11,252 bases of DNA from Myxococcales bacterium (GTDB lineage: Bacteria; Myxococcota; Bradymonadia; REDH01), in contig JAGWVZ010000066.1 of NCBI GenBank assembly GCA_018970625.1, positions 1 to 11,252 on the forward strand. The letters run 5' to 3'. The notes below the pieces were generated by a model. The model was not told where the DNA came from and did not search any database. It saw only the letters and a list, made by a program, of their open reading frames with translations. Both the position numbers and the translations under genes were made by a program. Shown one piece after another: positions 1,579-11,252 of the stretch (position 1 is its first letter; each line of letters begins with the position of its first letter).

Positions 1579-2685
1579 TCAATCCAACTGCGGCAGCATG
1601 GACGTCCAGGCAAACCCGCCGCACCCGTCGGTGGTGAGGGAGCTCGCGTCCGCCAGCGGAGCGAGCACCGCTTCGAGCAGGGTCGCGCCATCAAAGACGG
1701 TCTGGCAGTACCAGAGCTGGTCGAACGCATCGGCATCGACCACGACTTCGAAGCGGGACCATCGCCCCGGAAAGAACTCGTTGGTGTCGGCGTTTCGGGC
1801 GACGTAGGCGCTGCTGATCCAGCCTACATAGGAAAATTCCTCAAAAGTAATGCCATCATAGCTGCGGCGCCATGCTGCAGGCCCAATCTCCTGAAACCCG
1901 CCGAATTCGTCCTGGTAGTTTCCGGTGAACGCGGAGCCATTCCGGGGGTAAATCAGATTCCATGGCTGACCATAGCAACCAGAATCGAGATTGGCACTGT
2001 CGAGGCCGGTGAGCGCCAGCGCGGCGTCCAGTCCGGATTCACCGTCTTCGTCGATGCAGAACCAGCCCTGCCGAGGTTCTTCGAGCGAGTCCGAGAGCAG
2101 CCAGTTCATGCGGACCCAGCGACCAGCCAGCGGCGATTCACTGGCATCGGCCACCTGCACCACAAACTGTGAGGCGTCATAATCGACCTGAACCACGATG
2201 CCAGCCAACGCAGCGGGCCCCACGTCGGCAAAGAAGTAACCGTCTGCGAAGACGATCGCCTGCCCGGTCTCCTGACCCCAGACACCGCTCGGCCAGCGCG
2301 GGTCGGCAAACCAGCCGCCCGGCTCAACGACATCGGTGTTGGTGTCATCAAGGGTGTCGGCGTCACCATTGCTGGTCGCGTCAGCATCAGCGGGCGTGCT
2401 GGCGTCGGCATCAGCGGGCGTGCTGGCGTCGGTGACGGCATCGCTCGGGGCCGCGTCTCCGGCGCCGGTGTCCGTGCCACTATCAGCGCCTGCATCGGTC
2501 GTGGCGTCTGCGCCGGCATCCTCTGTGACGGCGTCGGGCGTGACGTCGGAGCCGGCATCGACGGCGTCGGTTTCCTCGGCATCGGTATCGGGGGCAGGGC
2601 CGACCTCGTCGGAACCACCGCAGGCGACGAGCGAGGTGCTGGCAAAGAGGAGCGTGGCGAGCGCGCGCAATTGGGTCGGTGACAT
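1579..2685 (-). CDS. Riboswitch-led lipoprotein with acidic linker and duplicated Cys module
   Basis: This is a 368-residue lipoprotein. The start at 2685 is chosen over the in-frame ATG at 2712 because AGGAG (2692-2696) lies six bases before it and because it gives a clean lipoprotein signal: a hydrophobic stretch and the lipobox LVAC with C22. Gly23 after the cysteine agrees with outer-membrane sorting. Residues 23-122 are an Asp/Ala/Thr-rich linker with a repeated DASTPADA phrase, likely a flexible stalk. Residues 123-368 form a Trp-rich globular part with two related modules (about 172-247 and 290-365). Each has GRW, then W[FY]C, then GC, then W: C210/C237 and C327/C355, which may be disulfide pairs. 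I know of no function for this module. A cobalamin riboswitch lies in its 5' leader, so cobalamin-bound leader RNA should lower its expression. A role in B12 capture at the cell surface is inferred from that context only. Confidence 0.88.
   Translation of the reverse strand: MSPTQLRALATLLFASTSLVACGGSDEVGPAPDTDAEETDAVDAGSDVTPDAVTEDAGADATTDAGADSGTDTGAGDAAPSDAVTDASTPADADASTPADADATSNGDADTLDDTNTDVVEPGGWFADPRWPSGVWGQETGQAIVFADGYFFADVGPAALAGIVVQVDYDASQFVVQVADASESPLAGRWVRMNWLLSDSLEEPRQGWFCIDEDGESGLDAALALTGLDSANLDSGCYGQPWNLIYPRNGSAFTGNYQDEFGGFQEIGPAAWRRSYDGITFEEFSYVGWISSAYVARNADTNEFFPGRWSRFEVVVDADAFDQLWYCQTVFDGATLLEAVLAPLADASSLTTDGCGGFAWTSMLPQLD
1591..1818 (-). repeat. Lipoprotein module copy B (residues about 290-365)
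   Basis: This is the second copy of the duplicated module. Its landmarks are GRWSR, a hydrophobic strand, LWYCQ, an Ala/Leu-rich stretch, DGCGG and AW. The W[FY]C and GC cysteines keep nearly the same spacing as in copy A. The boundaries are approximate. Confidence 0.65.
1945..2172 (-). repeat. Lipoprotein module copy A (residues about 172-247)
   Basis: This is the first copy of the protein-level duplication. Its landmarks are GRWVR, a hydrophobic strand, GWFC, an Ala/Leu helix-like stretch, SGCYG and PWN. The same order recurs in copy B (1591-1818). The boundaries are approximate and were aligned by eye. Confidence 0.65.
2384..2431. repeat. Perfect 24-bp tandem duplication in the lipoprotein linker
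   Basis: Two exact, adjacent copies of a 24-base unit (2384-2407 and 2408-2431) encode the repeated DASTPADA phrase in the acidic linker of the minus-strand lipoprotein. The unit is a multiple of three, so copy-number change would alter linker length without a frameshift. The identity of the copies points to a recent slippage event. Confidence 0.9.
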
Positions 2686-2691
2686 CTGTGT

Positions 2692-2696
2692 CTCCT
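2692..2696 (-). promoter_or_regulatory. Ribosome binding site of the riboswitch-led lipoprotein
   Basis: AGGAG on the minus strand is followed by six bases and the ATG at 2685. It decides the start against the upstream in-frame ATG at 2712. It lies immediately beside the hairpin-forming leader segment 2698-2722, so its access could be controlled by RNA folding. Confidence 0.8.
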
Positions 2697-2697
2697 G

Positions 2698-2722
2698 GAC
2701 GAATGACGCCATTCTGGCGTCC
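2698..2722 (-). promoter_or_regulatory. Leader hairpin, probable riboswitch expression platform
   Basis: In the minus-strand transcript a perfect 7-bp stem GACGCCA/TGGCGTC with a GAA loop (2705-2721) lies just upstream of the Shine-Dalgarno. An alternative pairing, GGACG (2718-2722) with CGTCC (2698-2702), uses the same 5' bases and reaches to one base from the AGGAG. There is no U-tract after the stem, so it does not look like an intrinsic terminator. A translational switch fits better. The mechanism is inferred. Confidence 0.5.
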
Positions 2723-2825
2723 TATGGGTCATGCCGCGACCGGGGTCGGTTCACAGCGAGTGGGCTCTTTCCGCGCAAGCGTGCCGTCCCTCGAGACACG
2801 CAAACCATCCGCACGAATGCGAATG

Positions 2826-3010
2826 ACCGAGGGCAGGTCTTCGGGCTCACCACCGTGTCCCGTTTCCGGGCTGGCCTACTCTTCGCCGCTTCCCAGGCCA
2901 GGCCCAGTGCATGCTCGCGAATTTCGTTGTGGCTTACCGCTGCGGGGCAGCCCTGGAGTCAAACCAGGTTCCCTCTTACGTCTGGACGCAGAGCGCACAG
3001 AACCGTCGGC
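2826..3010 (-). ncRNA. Cobalamin (B12, adenosylcobalamin-type) riboswitch aptamer
   Basis: Read on the minus strand, the segment has the conserved blocks of the cobalamin riboswitch in order. GAGGGAA is at 2969-2975. A CCTGG...CCAGG stem follows, then CTG and CCCCGCAGCGGTAAGCC at about 2931-2950. Next come CACTGG and CTGGGAAG at about 2886-2909, and a CCCG-GAAA-CGGG hairpin at 2859-2870. The 3' B12 box AGCCCGAAGACCTGCC ends at 2833. A closing P1 helix can form between GCCGA (3006-3010) and TCGGT (2826-2830). The B12 box ends about 147 bases before the lipoprotein start at 2685, which is room for an expression platform. No other minus-strand gene lies between, so this lipoprotein is the regulated gene. 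Riboswitches of this class repress their target when cobalamin is bound. Confidence 0.95.
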
Positions 3011-3017
3011 AAGCCGC

Positions 3018-3046
3018 GCTTTCGCACGATAGCCGCGACGTGTCAA
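3018..3046 (-). promoter_or_regulatory. Candidate promoter for the riboswitch transcript
   Basis: On the minus strand a perfect -35 hexamer TTGACA occupies 3041-3046. At a 17-base spacing the -10 position (3018-3023) reads GAAAGC, a poor match. The placement is right: transcription would start close to 3011, just before the P1 helix of the riboswitch. The assignment rests on the -35 match and the geometry. Confidence 0.4.
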
Positions 3047-3162: not shown

Positions 3163-5934
3163 GTGCCTGCCATGATGAACGAGACGACCGAACGAGTGCT
3201 CAAAAGTTGGCTGCGTGCATCGCTACGAGGAGCAGAGCCGGCGCAGGCGTTGTCGGGTTCGCAGGTGTGGCGCTGGGCTGTCGATGCATTTGTAGTGCGC
3301 GAGGGCGAGCACACCGCCTGGTTGCGGGTCGACGGCGAGGCTGCCGAACGCGTGCTGCGTGCGATTCAGCTGCCCGAGCTGCGCCCGGGGTTGCTGGATG
3401 CAAGGCCCCGGCTTTGCGCTGAAGAGGTGGTGCGCGCGCCCGTAGGCGGCCTTGTCGTCGCGGTACACACGAGCGTCGGCGATCGTATTTCGCCCAACCC
3501 TGCCGACCGCGCGGGCGCGACTGTGGCTACCGTGGAATGCATGAAAACCGAGTATCCCGTGATCATGCAGAGCGCCGGCACCATAACGCGCATGGTGGCG
3601 CCGCCGGGCTCTGTGGTGGCCGCGGGCGATATTATTCTGGAGTTTTCTTCCGAATTTTCGCCGTCCCATGACATCGTGGACGCCTGTCAGGTAACGCTGG
3701 CGGTCGCTCCCGGCGACGCGGAAGTTCTGGAAGCTGTTCTTCAGGGCGGCAGTGTGCCGGACGATGTGCTTCGCGACAGCGTGGAACGGCAACCCGAAAT
3801 GGCTGCGCGACTGCTAAGCCAGGCCATGTACCGCCTTTGGCCGGCGGGGTGGGCCTGTGATAAGCCGTGCACCCATGCTCGAACGAATCATGCGCACGGA
3901 AATGCTGGCGTTTCGCAGGCATCGACCGAATCGGGTTTCAGCGCCGACGCATCCCACCTCCTGGCGACCAGCACGCACCATACCTCGCTTGATCCCGCTC
4001 TGTGTCAGCTGTTTGGGGAACGTCGCTGGCAGAAATTCTCGGCGGACTACGCTGCGCAGGACCATTTATTTTCAGCAACCCTTGCGGCGCTGAGCGAACG
4101 CGGTGCTGCGCAGGTTTCCGTACCCGAAAACAGACAACTGGCGGCCACGATCTATCCGAAAACAGGCGCCGCACTCACTACGCTCGGTTTCGCGGTGCCG
4201 AACGACGCCGAATTTCCACGAAAGCGTTTTTACGCACTTTGTGCTGCAGGTCGCTGGAAGAACTGGTTTGGTGTGGAAGCGGTCCACCCGACGCCGGACG
4301 CGCCTGCGAGTGAGGCGGACAGCAAAAGGATGCAGCAACTGCGCCGCGGAGTCATTCACCCGGCGTTCGTTCTGTCCACCGTACTCGACGAGCAGGACAC
4401 CTTTGTTGAGTATAGGGAACGGGCGGGCATGGTGCCGGTTGCGTGGCAACCCGACGTACCGCGCAGCTCGGCTGCAGCGGTTTTCGGGCTTGTGATTCCC
4501 GAGGGCGAAGGTCGAACATCGCAGAGCGCGCACAAAATGCAGAAATACGTATTTCTGTGCAGTGACCCCACCCGCAATATGGCGTCGCTAACCAACGCAG
4601 AGTGCGACGTGGTAGAGGCGGCGTTGACGCTGGCCGAGCACGAACAATGCGATGTGGTCTGGTTTGCGACGAGCTCGGGCGCGCGCATCGACATGAAAAG
4701 CGGCACCGAGAATCTCGATGGAACGGCGCGGGCGCTGCGTCGTGTCGCGCTATTTTCGAGGGGCCCGCTTCGCATTCACGCGGTCGCCATGGGCCCGTGC
4801 GTGGGTGCTCAGGCGTACTGGCTGTCTGCGGCATGCATCGCGATGGGTTCGCGCGGTACGCTCGTCATGACCGAGCGTGGGAGTCTGATTCTGAGTGGTC
4901 GACGCGCGCTGGAAGTTTCTGGCGGCGTTCCCGCGGCATCTGAGCGTGCGCTGGGTGGCTACGACGTGCTTGGACCGGTTGGGCAGGCGGCATTTGGCGT
5001 GCAGGATATTGCTGCGGCATGGGCATTATTGCGGCGACGCCTTGAAAACCCCGCGGCAATAGAACATGACCACCGCCCTGCCCTTGCCGACACGTTACTG
5101 TACGAACAAACGCCGGATCAGTCTGTAAATGCGCTGCTGAAAATTGGCGATGTATTTGACGACGAAAAAAATAAAGGACGACGACGTGCATGGCCAGTCG
5201 CGCCGCTGATGAATCGGGTACTGGATATCGAACCGGAGGGTTCAGGACCGTTGTGTCCATGGTCGGCGTGGGCAGAGGCACGTCAGGCGGTGGTCATGTG
5301 GGGCCGCATTGCAGGGCGGCGAGTTACGCTGATTGGGGTGGATAATCAGGCGACCGACGCCGAGTGGGAGTCATCGCATGCACAGGGACAGACCTTCGCG
5401 GCGGGGACGCTTTATCCGGCCTCGTCGCGGAAAATTGCCCGGGCGATTCATGCAGCGTCGGGACGAGAACCGGTGATCGTATTTGCCAATATGGCGGGTT
5501 TTGATGGATCGGCGTGGTCGCTCGCAGCGGGGCAGCTGGAGTTTGGAGCCGAGGTGGCGACAGCAGTGGCGACGTGTGAGAGTCCGATTCTGGTGGTCGT
5601 GCTCACCCGATATCACGGCGGTGCATTTGTCGTATTTTCCCGACAGCTAAATCCAGATTTGCAGTCGATTGCCATACAAGGCAGCCAGGCGTCGGTGATT
5701 GGGGGCGGCGCAGCGGCTACCGTGGTATTTTCGGCCGATATTCAGAAACGAACGCAGGCGGCAGGTGGAGGTGCGGAAGCTCGCGCGGCGGTGCTACAGG
5801 AGCTGGCGCAGGCTTTTGATGCACACCACAGCATTGAACGTGCGCAGCAGGCGGGCTCGGTTGACCGCATTATTTCGCTACATGAATTACCGTCGGCGCT
5901 GGCAGAATTTGTGGGGCGCGCGCCGAAGGGGTAG
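3163..5934 (+). CDS. Biotin carrier-carboxyltransferase fusion of the acyl-CoA carboxylase family
   Basis: The 923-residue product joins a biotinyl carrier domain (about 88-161) to a carboxyltransferase. The biotin site reads VECMKTE with K128 as the biotinylated lysine; the usual motif is EAMKM. Residues 165-430 match nothing I recognise and resemble a linker or central domain. The N-lobe of the transferase (about 438-625) shows FGLVIPEGEG, SGARI at 505-509, GPCVGAQAYWLSA and a LGGYDVLGPVGQAAFGV segment. The C-lobe (about 708-862) shows VFANMAGFDG, LEFGAEVA and YHGGAFVVFSRQLNPDL. These enzymes move CO2 from carboxybiotin to an acyl-CoA in the cytosol; the substrate cannot be told. No biotin carboxylase domain or gene is in the window. 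The start is unsure: GTG 3163, ATG 3172 and ATG 3175 all lack a ribosome binding site, and a stop at 3130 limits any extension. Residues 231-275 read oddly (see findings). Confidence 0.83.
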   Translation: MPAMMNETTERVLKSWLRASLRGAEPAQALSGSQVWRWAVDAFVVREGEHTAWLRVDGEAAERVLRAIQLPELRPGLLDARPRLCAEEVVRAPVGGLVVAVHTSVGDRISPNPADRAGATVATVECMKTEYPVIMQSAGTITRMVAPPGSVVAAGDIILEFSSEFSPSHDIVDACQVTLAVAPGDAEVLEAVLQGGSVPDDVLRDSVERQPEMAARLLSQAMYRLWPAGWACDKPCTHARTNHAHGNAGVSQASTESGFSADASHLLATSTHHTSLDPALCQLFGERRWQKFSADYAAQDHLFSATLAALSERGAAQVSVPENRQLAATIYPKTGAALTTLGFAVPNDAEFPRKRFYALCAAGRWKNWFGVEAVHPTPDAPASEADSKRMQQLRRGVIHPAFVLSTVLDEQDTFVEYRERAGMVPVAWQPDVPRSSAAAVFGLVIPEGEGRTSQSAHKMQKYVFLCSDPTRNMASLTNAECDVVEAALTLAEHEQCDVVWFATSSGARIDMKSGTENLDGTARALRRVALFSRGPLRIHAVAMGPCVGAQAYWLSAACIAMGSRGTLVMTERGSLILSGRRALEVSGGVPAASERALGGYDVLGPVGQAAFGVQDIAAAWALLRRRLENPAAIEHDHRPALADTLLYEQTPDQSVNALLKIGDVFDDEKNKGRRRAWPVAPLMNRVLDIEPEGSGPLCPWSAWAEARQAVVMWGRIAGRRVTLIGVDNQATDAEWESSHAQGQTFAAGTLYPASSRKIARAIHAASGREPVIVFANMAGFDGSAWSLAAGQLEFGAEVATAVATCESPILVVVLTRYHGGAFVVFSRQLNPDLQSIAIQGSQASVIGGGAAATVVFSADIQKRTQAAGGGAEARAAVLQELAQAFDAHHSIERAQQAGSVDRIISLHELPSALAEFVGRAPKG
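3424..3645 (+). other. Biotinyl/lipoyl carrier domain with VECMKTE biotin site
   Basis: This domain of the fusion protein has the two-fold pattern of biotinyl domains: VVRAPVGGLVVAVHTSVGDRI before the lysine hairpin and IMQSAGTITRMVAPPGSVVAAGDIILEF after it. The conserved Met before Lys is kept (M127-K128). The position after Lys is Thr instead of Met, and the residue before Met is Cys instead of Ala. A lysine in this setting should still be accepted by a biotin ligase, but that is inference. Confidence 0.85.
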
Positions 5935-5952: not shown

Positions 5953-8094
5953 TCATGCCTGACCGGCGGCGGCGTTTACCGGTGGGTGCGACCGGCGCCA
6001 GTCTGACCACCAGGCATCGGCCTCGTGGCTGGTCCATGGCACGGAAAGAATCACGGCATCCAGCGCTTCCATGAACTCCTGAGCTGACGCAAATCGTTGC
6101 GATGGAGATTTCGCCAATGCCCTCAGAATGACCGCATCCAGTGATTCGGGAATGGCGAGCACACATCGGCGCGAGGGCGGAATGGGCTGTTCATGCACAT
6201 GCTGAAAACACAGCTCTACCACGGAAGGCCCCTGAAAAACGGGCTCACCGGTAAGCAGGTAATAGGCGACGGCTCCGACCGCGTAGAGATCGGCCCTGCC
6301 ATCCACGGTTTCGGTGCCGAGAATCGCCTCGGGTGACAGATACTGCGGCGTTCCCAGAATCAGGCGGTTCTGGGTGATGGCGACATCGGCTTCGGTGCGG
6401 GTCTCTTTGACCAGTCCGAAATCGAGCACTTTGACAAAATCAGGAATTCCACCACGGACGGAGACCATCAGGTTCGCCGGTTTGATGTCGCGGTGAATCA
6501 GCCCGATGGCGTGGGCCTCGGCAAGCGCGCCGAGAACCTGTCGAATCAGATGCACCACACGAGCCGCCGGAAGCGGTCCGGCTTCCCGAATGAGGCTTTC
6601 AAAGCTAACGCCGTCCAGCAGCTCCATGGCGTAATAAAAATCACCTTCGTCGGTTCTTCCGAAATCATAAATGGCGATGGTATTCGGATGCGTCAGCCGG
6701 GAGGTGAGCTGCACTTCTCGTTCAAAGCGAGCGATGAGCGTGGCGTCGTTGCCTCTTTGCAGCAGCTTGACGGCAGTGGGACGCTGCAAAAAGGCATGTC
6801 GTGCCGCATAGACAAGGCCCACGCCGCCCTGGCCGAGTGGCTGTAGCAGGGTGTACTGCCCCAGTTGGCGTGCGGCTTCGACCTCGCGGCGCAGGTGTGT
6901 GATCGTGGTAGAAGCGGCGACCACGCTGGCGCCCAGCAGTGTAACGAACGCACCGAGCGCCAGCGTCAGCCAGCTCAGGGCGGAGTGTCGAACCGGGACC
7001 CGGTTCACAAACTGCAGGCGCCAGTTCCTGGATGCGTAGTCCCATTCCGACACCTGACTCCCGGGTGCAGCCGCGTCGAATGCAGTATCTGTCCAGGACC
7101 GTGCGAAGAGAGAAACGGCGGTGTCATCGGTTACATCCAGCAGGCGAAACGCGAGCCCCTCGCCATCTTCCTGGCCCAGCGCCCGCTCCATGATGGCATG
7201 TAACCTGAAAATGACGATGGCGAGGCCGCGGGGATGCTCGACCCTCTCGGTTGTGGTCGCAGGCCAGTCATTGCCCTCATAAACCGCCAGATACACCGCG
7301 ATCGAGCGGTGTTCCGGCGCGTCCTCGGCGAGCACGAAGGGAGGCGATGCGAGTGGGTTTCCGCTGGCGACGGCCTGCCTTACCCGGCCGCGCCGTAACG
7401 CCTCGGAGAGCAGGTCAAAGCCCAGCGCGGTGGGGTCATCGGCCGGCGCCATGAACATCAGCGGATAATACTCGCGGCGTTGGGCGGCGGTAGCAAAGGC
7501 GCCATTGGCCTGCAGCTCAGAGATGGCAAAACCCGGGTATTGCGCGGCCATTTCTGCTTCAAATCGCTCGCGCTCGTGCTCCTGAATGCGCGGCGCCCAC
7601 TCCAGCAGGCTCACAGAGGGATAACGACGCAAGGCATCGGCAACAAACCGATCAAACTCTTCCCGTGTCACCGTTTCACTGGCGCCAAAGAAAGCACGAA
7701 CAGAACGCAGTACTTCAACCGGAAGCTCGAACTGCCGCTGCAGCAGCTGGGTGACGCGCGACGCTCGCTGACTGAAGGCATGATGATGCTCGCCAATCTC
7801 ACGAGCACGGACTGCGCGAAAAGCCACCAGACTGACAAACAAACCAACGACCAGAATCGCGACCGCGGGCACGACTCGGACCCAGACCGTCGTATGCGAC
7901 GCTCCCCGCACGCCAATGAAAGGCCCGGTACCGCGCAGTGAGCGGACATTTTGCTTCTGATAAGGGTCCGACGTCAACGTAAACTCGGCAATCAGGACAG
8001 CACAGAATCGCGCGCGGGCACCGCACCGGGAGGGTGTAGTCACAAGGGCGTGCGTTCGACAAGCGTCCTGCAAACCGTGGGAGCTCGCGTTCAC
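5953..8094 (-). CDS. Transmembrane Ser/Thr protein kinase with CHASE-like sensor
   Basis: The order is a membrane segment (about 74-93), an extracytoplasmic CHASE-like region (about 105-365, including RYPSVSLLEWAPRI), a second membrane segment (about 373-394), then a C-terminal Hanks-type kinase. The kinase motifs look complete: glycine loop GQGGVG (421-426), AVKLL with K443, helix-C E460, catalytic HRDIKPAN with D536 and N541, DFG at 558-560, and GTPQYLSPEA at 581-590. It should sense a small ligand outside the inner membrane and phosphorylate Ser/Thr inside. CHASE domains are best known on histidine kinases and cyclases. The protein ends soon after the kinase fold. The start is uncertain: GTG 8094 gives the longest form, but the first 60 residues look unlike protein and no Shine-Dalgarno is seen. 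GTG 7911 would begin just before the first membrane helix. It is convergent with the carboxylase fusion, with 18 bases between stop codons. Confidence 0.9.
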   Translation of the reverse strand: MNASSHGLQDACRTHALVTTPSRCGARARFCAVLIAEFTLTSDPYQKQNVRSLRGTGPFIGVRGASHTTVWVRVVPAVAILVVGLFVSLVAFRAVRAREIGEHHHAFSQRASRVTQLLQRQFELPVEVLRSVRAFFGASETVTREEFDRFVADALRRYPSVSLLEWAPRIQEHERERFEAEMAAQYPGFAISELQANGAFATAAQRREYYPLMFMAPADDPTALGFDLLSEALRRGRVRQAVASGNPLASPPFVLAEDAPEHRSIAVYLAVYEGNDWPATTTERVEHPRGLAIVIFRLHAIMERALGQEDGEGLAFRLLDVTDDTAVSLFARSWTDTAFDAAAPGSQVSEWDYASRNWRLQFVNRVPVRHSALSWLTLALGAFVTLLGASVVAASTTITHLRREVEAARQLGQYTLLQPLGQGGVGLVYAARHAFLQRPTAVKLLQRGNDATLIARFEREVQLTSRLTHPNTIAIYDFGRTDEGDFYYAMELLDGVSFESLIREAGPLPAARVVHLIRQVLGALAEAHAIGLIHRDIKPANLMVSVRGGIPDFVKVLDFGLVKETRTEADVAITQNRLILGTPQYLSPEAILGTETVDGRADLYAVGAVAYYLLTGEPVFQGPSVVELCFQHVHEQPIPPSRRCVLAIPESLDAVILRALAKSPSQRFASAQEFMEALDAVILSVPWTSHEADAWWSDWRRSHPPVNAAAGQA

Positions 8095-9894: not shown

Positions 9895-11252
9895 ATGTTC
9901 CGCAACGCAACAGTCGGCACCACCCTGCTCCTGATGACGTGCGGATGTCTGGCGCCCGAATACACGGAGCCGCAGCCCCCCGGAGTAACTTCCTCGGCGG
10001 GCTCCACGATCGCGTACGAGGCCGCCAACGGGCGAGTCTGGCTCACCTCGCCAGACGATGACCGCGTGGTCGTGCTCGACGCGGAATCACTTCAGCAGGT
10101 GTTAACGTACGATGTCACCGATGAACCCGCTCATCTGGCGATTCTCAATGGCGCGCTGATCGTCACCGCAACACATGACAGCCGGGTCTGGCTGCTGCCA
10201 CCCGCGAGCGAACAACCGCTGACCATCGAGACTCCCTGCGGCGCGACAAGGGGTGTGGCGTGGCTGGATGCGGCGGCCACGCGTGCGCTGGTGTCGTGCC
10301 CGTGGGACGAACGGCTCTTGCTCATCGACACCGACTCAGGCGCCGTGTCAGGCGTCTTCGCTGCGCCCGCCAGACCCACCGCCGTCGCCGTCACGCAGGG
10401 CATTGTCCACGTCACATCCTCGGTCGAAGGGGTCGTGTACAGCGCTCCTGCCAGCGCCTTCTACGATGCCGGAACCACCAGCCTTCGTCCGATCGGCTGG
10501 CAGGCACCACCTCGGCAACACGCACCCGATCGACAGGGCACACAGCTGGACGCGCTCACTGTTTCCAGCAGGGGTGTCAGTGGCGTCATGCAGATTGTCG
10601 ACAACGACAACGACCGCACGCGAGCTCCAGAGGACGGAGGCTATGGGCAGGTCGAAGATGGAAACCCCCGCATCGAACCCTTTATTGTGGGTAGTTGTGC
10701 AGGACGTTACGCTATTTTCGACGGTGGAGACCGTATCTTCTCGGGTCCGACGGCAATCGCGGAAGCTCCGGAAGCGAATCTCTGGGTGCTGAATGCCGGC
10801 ACGCAAAACCTTGCGCGGGTGCTTTGCGCCGGTCAACCGTCTACGACCGAATGGCGTGCAGTGGGTGGCCAGTGGCCGGTGGGCGGCGGCGCGCGTGGTC
10901 TGGCCACCTCGGCAGATGGCACCATTGTGTGGGTGGACGTCGGCTATGACCACGCGGTTACTCGGCTGCAGGTGCTCGCCGACGGCACGGAGGTCTCGTT
11001 GCAGACGGTGCGTCGCGAGCCTGGGCCCATGGAATGGTCGAATGCAGCCTTGCAGGGCCGCCGCCATTTCTCGAACGCCACCGACACCCACCTGACCCCC
11101 AGCGGGGTAGTGGCCTGTGCCACATGCCACCCGGAGTCGGGCGAAGACGGGCTGAGCTGGTTTATTCACACCACCGGAATTCAGCGCAAACTGCGGCGAA
11201 CGCCCTCGGCGCGTGGCATGGACACCGCCGCACGACCGTTACACTGGGATGG
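9895..11252 (+). CDS. Exported beta-propeller protein with c-type heme motif (3' end outside window)
   Basis: The frame is open from ATG 9895 to the right edge (452 complete codons, no stop), so the gene is 3'-partial. The N-terminus has a hydrophobic segment TTLLLMTCGC (9-18). It may be lipidated at C16 or C18, though neither site is a perfect lipobox. Residues 35-385 read as YVTN/YncE-like propeller blades, for example GRVWLTSPDDDRVVVLDAES, DERLLLIDTDSGAVSG and NLWVLNAGTQNLARV. Then follow GRRHFSNATDTHLTPSGVVACATCHPE and DGLSW, with heme-binding C408, C411 and H412, and RRTPSARGM...LHWDG. This arrangement is typical of propeller proteins with a cytochrome-c/MauG-like C-terminus acting in electron transfer or peroxide chemistry outside the inner membrane. 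The second half of that domain is beyond the edge. No strong Shine-Dalgarno is seen. It follows the 8173 lipoprotein by 90 bases and may be co-transcribed with it. Confidence 0.85.
   Translation, partial: MFRNATVGTTLLLMTCGCLAPEYTEPQPPGVTSSAGSTIAYEAANGRVWLTSPDDDRVVVLDAESLQQVLTYDVTDEPAHLAILNGALIVTATHDSRVWLLPPASEQPLTIETPCGATRGVAWLDAAATRALVSCPWDERLLLIDTDSGAVSGVFAAPARPTAVAVTQGIVHVTSSVEGVVYSAPASAFYDAGTTSLRPIGWQAPPRQHAPDRQGTQLDALTVSSRGVSGVMQIVDNDNDRTRAPEDGGYGQVEDGNPRIEPFIVGSCAGRYAIFDGGDRIFSGPTAIAEAPEANLWVLNAGTQNLARVLCAGQPSTTEWRAVGGQWPVGGGARGLATSADGTIVWVDVGYDHAVTRLQVLADGTEVSLQTVRREPGPMEWSNAALQGRRHFSNATDTHLTPSGVVACATCHPESGEDGLSWFIHTTGIQRKLRRTPSARGMDTAARPLHWD
11116..11130 (+). other. CxxCH heme c attachment site
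   Basis: TGT-GCC-ACA-TGC-CAC encodes Cys-Ala-Thr-Cys-His at residues 408-412 of the right-edge propeller protein. The flanking text fits known cytochrome-type domains, with GRRHFSNA before it and a conserved DGLSW after it. The motif requires export, which agrees with the N-terminal signal. Confidence 0.85.

Follow-up and report, generated by a model that had tools for sequence, protein, structure and literature searches.

A lipoprotein encoded behind a cobalamin riboswitch, a probable new component of vitamin B12 scavenging

Vitamin B12 is a shared and contested nutrient, so the ability to scavenge it shapes communities. The closest described systems are the B12 uptake operons of Bacteroides, whose surface lipoproteins BtuG, BtuH, BtuJ and BtuK are presented in the available parts of three reports (PMC8941943, PMC12751083, PMC13398666); in the literature examined, accessory B12-capture lipoproteins come from Bacteroides and from DUF4465 relatives. 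The locus considered here lies in a window of 11,252 nucleotides, by which the whole stretch of DNA analysed is meant (contig JAGWVZ010000066.1, assembly GCA_018970625.1, Myxococcales bacterium), and consists of a cobalamin riboswitch followed on the minus strand by a lipoprotein gene. The lipoprotein probably represents a component, not described before, of a system that scavenges vitamin B12. The favoured reading, to which a probability of about 0.62 is given, is that of a riboswitch-repressed surface lipoprotein which captures cobamides or presents them to a BtuB-type receptor.

The lipoprotein contains two copies of a domain of about 110 amino acids, termed X here. X lipoproteins resemble the Btu lipoproteins of Bacteroides in being encoded in cobalamin-riboswitch operons, some of which hold a TonB receptor near BtuB, and a further likeness, to BtuH, lies in domain Y, a partner found at most X loci, which is predicted to fold like the B12-binding domain of BtuH. 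In contrast to the BtuG propeller, the BtuH domain and the DUF4465 jelly-roll of BtuJ, X is a predicted lipocalin-like barrel present in one to several copies; it comes from a different phylum and is known here from sequence and predicted structure. Whereas BtuG is a YncE-like propeller of about 300 residues, X was modelled as a barrel of 118 residues and the window protein has no propeller family match. DUF4465 was matched neither by the window protein nor by any of 121 X domains (E ≤ 0.01).

The locus comprises the following elements:
2815-3022, minus strand: cobalamin riboswitch aptamer RF00174 (cmscan, full model 1-189, 96.5 bits, E 1.5e-23)
2785-2799, minus strand: candidate anti-Shine-Dalgarno segment, able to base-pair with the ribosome binding region
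2779-2801, minus strand: alternative hairpin (local fold, -12.8 kcal/mol), which would leave the ribosome binding region unpaired
2688-2701, minus strand: ribosome binding region with AGGAG at 2692-2696, from sequence and duplex, which the anti-Shine-Dalgarno segment could cover
1579-2685, minus strand: lipoprotein gene, 368 amino acids, open reading frame from the ATG at 2685 to a stop, included, that ends at 1579
2620-2685, minus strand: signal peptide and lipobox LVAC with the lipidated Cys22, invariant in six aligned sequences
2326-2619, minus strand: low-complexity Asp/Ala/Thr stalk, residues 23-120, from sequence and alignment
1960-2325, minus strand: first, diverged X copy, residues 121-242 (X profile 37.6 bits over region 1945-2208)
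1582-1959, minus strand: second X copy, residues 243-368 (X profile 90 bits), a predicted lipocalin-like barrel

The aptamer, which an earlier note on this DNA had placed at 2826-3010 as nearly complete, proved to be full length and encloses those positions, with a score well over the RF00174 gathering score of 31.5 bits. As the note also stated, the lipoprotein gene is the only one downstream: no minus-strand open reading frame of at least 80 amino acids that could be an overlooked gene lies wholly between it and the aptamer, and the next gene, Uma2 (799-1500), is on the plus strand. The riboswitch-lipoprotein unit therefore looks monocistronic. A leader of about 147 bases with a strong ribosome binding site had been proposed; the AGGAG motif is present, and the distance from the end of the covariance model (2815) to the start codon (2685) came out at 129 bases instead. 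A second in-frame ATG stands upstream of this start, at 2712.

Between aptamer and start codon there is neither a terminator-like site nor a run of four U, and the leader offers both an anti-Shine-Dalgarno pairing and an alternative hairpin, so that action on translation is the better guess for this riboswitch, with a candidate pairing drawn from one sequence alone. The duplex of 2785-2799 with 2683-2701 has an energy of -21.0 kcal/mol, equalled by 7 of 1000 dinucleotide shuffles. A promoter scan found nothing, two terminator-like sites within the coding region are close to shuffle expectation (mean 1.1), and no kissing-loop platform was placed because the leader contains no exact complement of four L5-loop 5-mers.

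The signal peptide with its lipobox, read by eye and by regular expression, identifies the product as a bacterial lipoprotein, and its stalk and globular part with four cysteines and many tryptophans agree with the earlier description of a stalked, Trp- and Cys-rich protein. The first protein search returned five close homologues with 73-97% identity over the globular part. The window protein has no Pfam match and a single, chance-level NCBIfam match; a PDB sequence search gave chance matches alone (E 0.07 and worse), and tblastn against plasmids gave no match.

A domain duplication makes up the globular part, whose halves align at 32% identity and keep two cysteines each (blastp between the copies, E 8e-8 without composition correction). 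The AlphaFold2 model of 1585-1938 is a barrel with a predicted local distance difference test (pLDDT) of 91.3 and a predicted template modelling score (pTM) of 0.82. Its fold matches, at 9-14% identity, include the lipocalin-like lipoproteins Tp0751 (5jk2), BACEGG_00036 (4i95), BACUNI_03039 (4iab) and BACOVA_00364 (4gzv), the best Foldseek match being 4iab at E 0.033; to our knowledge none of the four has a B12 link. BtuH, BtuJ and BtuG are missing among the fold matches listed, and a PDB sequence search with the X profile yielded nothing below E 0.7. Across 121 aligned X rows C78, G105, C106 and W111 are invariant and several aromatic positions nearly so, and each X domain of the window protein is predicted to hold a disulfide. 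The one common histidine of X (80%) is a glutamine in the second copy of the window protein, and a conserved His cluster is absent.

On their own, the five close relatives would have suggested an orphan. The X family was opened by a distant relative from a scan of genome contigs (L001, CAMAWH010000010.1; 38% identity), which has a single X domain and whose gene lies directly behind a cobalamin riboswitch of 91.8 bits. The X profile included the window sequence itself; the link between the window and L001 is independent of it. With the L001 domain as query, X was found in 117 of 377 sampled genomes, a group we infer to be Myxococcota, which adds a domain family without annotation, governed by the same kind of RNA, from a phylum other than that of Bacteroides. 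The first X copy of the window as query matched none of the 377 genomes at 1e-5, in a search that had no positive control. One X protein (P0029, a single X) is named from Lujinxingia sediminis, whose genus we take to belong to Bradymonadales. The L001 record is titled as a Klebsiella pneumoniae metagenome-assembled genome; the relatives of its X and Y lie in apparent Myxococcota, and the title looks wrong.

The association with riboswitches was counted at 89 X loci (L005-L093) from 84 of the 117 X-bearing genomes, or 85 with the genome of L001 (G001). This set excludes some 15 weaker matches from the listing and every match not listed. L002-L004 were excluded too, since L003 and L004 show the L001 locus again and L002 is the other G001 riboswitch. 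A same-strand cobalamin riboswitch lies upstream at 65 of the 89 loci (23/29, 15/20, 15/20 and 12/20 by batch), which are not fully independent, near-duplicates such as L024/L025 and L009/L012 being present. L014 was counted through RF01482 at 46.3 bits, under the cut-off of 50, with RF00174 there above its own cut-off at 34.8 bits. When the window and L001 are included and at least 350 upstream bases are required, the riboswitch is found at 67 of 84 loci; at these 67 the aptamer stands a median of 105 bases (range 21-861) from the start codon chosen. By contrast, only about 0.013 of 89 genes would be expected to have a riboswitch within 1 kb upstream by chance, a hand calculation on genomes chosen as X-bearing; 30 of them hold 59 cobalamin riboswitches in 198.8 Mb (a sum of rounded sizes). 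Of these riboswitches 25 are followed by X, with Y coming first in two cases (L008, L010). Among 91 loci, X is present in one copy at 47, two at 32, three at 10, four at one and five at one (fragments). Just upstream of the riboswitch-X gene at L033, L041 and L045 lie tRNA genes and a small signal recognition particle RNA gene, a neighbourhood conserved in three genomes. Among the matches listed in the literature search, no paper ties the X family to B12.

Domain Y gives the X family a frequent partner with a predicted B12-binding fold. It is absent from the stretch examined at 17 of the 67 riboswitch-X loci, the window included, where it may lie elsewhere in the genome, and at three loci (L015, L020, L044) X is fused ahead of Y in one lipoprotein. 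A PDB sequence search with the Y profile gave no match. Asn78 and Phe80 of Y are invariant in 61 aligned rows and have the spacing of Asn399 and Phe401 of BtuH2, a comparison by spacing made without a BtuH sequence alignment; the accessible text of PMC8941943 lists both among the B12 contacts of BtuH2, with Tyr510, Trp511, Trp577 and His476. A separate open frame of 796 residues (L150, G029:C24) with a Y domain at its end also lies behind a cobalamin riboswitch.

In three operons (L057, L080, L108) X and Y are followed by a TonB-dependent receptor whose closest solved relative is BtuB (E 6e-20, 2e-11 and 3e-18, respectively). These receptors score far under the NCBIfam BtuB cut-offs, and those of L080 and L108 score higher against MxcH, the model of a siderophore receptor. 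The expectation that homologues would recur with B12 riboswitches or transport genes is supported by these associations.

The wider regulon was sampled at 20 other riboswitch loci from X-bearing genomes. All eight first-gene receptors tested (L125, L127, L128, L130, L134, L135, L136, L142) are TonB receptors by Pfam; MxcH was the top NCBIfam model in each of the six that were run, and BtuB is the closest solved relative of the L130 receptor (E 3e-16). A family of proteins of about 365 amino acids, found behind the receptors of L125, L126, L127, L130 and L142 and also in L066 and L080, is weakly suggested by its sequences to consist of YncE/BtuG-like propellers: two members have no PDB match, an alignment matches just YncE-family and WD40 chains (E 0.09 and worse), and Pfam gave no supporting match, with a single PQQ_2 match at 0.009. 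Further riboswitch loci carry a periplasmic binding protein, an ATP-binding cassette ATPase, cobalamin synthesis genes and ribonucleotide reductase; at L129 the riboswitch stands upstream of the large subunit of the latter. X occurs in none of the 20 loci and Y in one (L128). From the gene content of the X operons and of these other loci in the same genomes, X belongs to a B12 regulon.

The favoured reading can be put as a sequence of events. At low B12 the riboswitch would keep the ribosome binding site accessible; the lipoprotein would be made, lipidated at Cys22 and taken to the outer membrane, where the stalk may hold it off the cell surface. The two X barrels, each with a predicted disulfide, could then serve a TonB-dependent receptor of the BtuB type by capturing cobamides or by holding and presenting them. 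With ample B12, the ligand-bound aptamer would allow segment 2785-2799 to mask the ribosome binding site, which would halt translation.

Owing to the recurrence of riboswitch and X, a part for X in B12 uptake is well supported and very likely. That X itself binds cobamides is somewhat favoured, and is its likeliest role, because Y is missing nearby at 17 of 67 loci and because the predicted barrel is of a ligand-binding kind. It is rather unlikely, by comparison, that X is an uptake accessory which does not bind B12, serving Y and BtuB from its stalk as a lid or as a domain for docking or dimerisation, much like the PKD domains of BtuH2 or like BtuL. X often adjoins Y, and in the three fusions it takes the position that PKD or propeller domains have in BtuH proteins (available part of PMC8941943), while BtuL of the B. 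theta operons is described as not binding cobalamin in the portion of PMC12751083 at hand. Against this, the loci without a nearby Y imply that X is frequently produced with no partner domain attached to it, even if Y may be encoded elsewhere, and the four invariant residues suggest more than a spacer, though they could serve the fold. Binding of another ligand whose need follows B12 status, for example cobalt or a nutrient replacing a B12-dependent route, is improbable, as the best-conserved X positions are aromatic residues, glycine and a cysteine pair rather than a His cluster and the usual partner has a predicted BtuH fold. From the window alone, a chance or decayed arrangement of riboswitch and lipoprotein without shared function could not have been excluded, but recurrence at 65 of 89 other loci refutes it for the family and in the window the aptamer is complete and scores well over the threshold, so that this explanation is hardly credible.

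The earlier inference of an unrelated B12-capture or uptake factor is thus supported, with cobamide binding by X and its exposure on the surface, as opposed to a periplasmic location, as its predicted parts. Several observations weigh against a riboswitch-repressed capture lipoprotein. No riboswitch is found at 17 of the 84 X loci with enough upstream sequence; of all 24 loci without one, eight have fewer than 420 bases ahead of the start codon chosen, the number being below 150 in seven of the eight, and in several cases the contig offers no upstream sequence at all. Others come from Leptospira, whose LIC_13354 and LIC_13355 are related to X and Y: NCBIfam NF047669 (LIC13354 family exoprotein) is matched by 84 of 121 X domains (E ≤ 0.01) and NF033170 (LIC_13355 family lipoprotein) by 42 of 52 Y domains (E ≤ 0.001). 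The highest of ten X proteins reaches 46.2 bits for NF047669 against a curated cut-off of 130, and the window protein does not match it at E ≤ 1. The two genes are consecutive by locus tag (accessible text of PMC5348505) and are induced alike in host-adapted cells, 3.77- and 3.72-fold; in the same available part of PMC3953431, both cobalamin riboswitches of that species are placed elsewhere, none is reported at the pair, and btuB is unchanged in these cells. The last points speak against riboswitch control as a general rule for this pair. LIC_13355 has been studied as a laminin and plasminogen binder, according to the portion of PMC11891782 available.

A broader proposal can be offered only tentatively, at somewhat less than even odds: that X is a new cobamide-binding class built on a lipocalin-like barrel, that with its BtuH-fold partner it forms a riboswitch-controlled outer-membrane capture machine across Myxococcota, and that LIC_13354/LIC_13355 are the same capture pair. 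Proteins so far called hypothetical, together with the Leptospira pair, become directly testable for cobamide binding.

Elsewhere in the window, three other genes were noted. On the plus strand, 3163-5934 encodes a protein of 923 amino acids in which a biotin-carrier domain precedes a carboxyltransferase domain. Carboxylation of the propionate type supplies a B12-dependent route; the gene is transcribed away from the riboswitch and nothing ties it to the switch. A mir-648 match at 10324-10407 was rejected as chance (22.5 bits against a cut-off of 84). On the minus strand, 5953-8094 encodes a protein that combines a CHASE domain with a Ser/Thr protein kinase domain. The plus-strand gene at 9895-11250 runs off the window; its propeller-like product bears a CxxCH motif close to the end and shows weak matches of the PQQ-repeat type.
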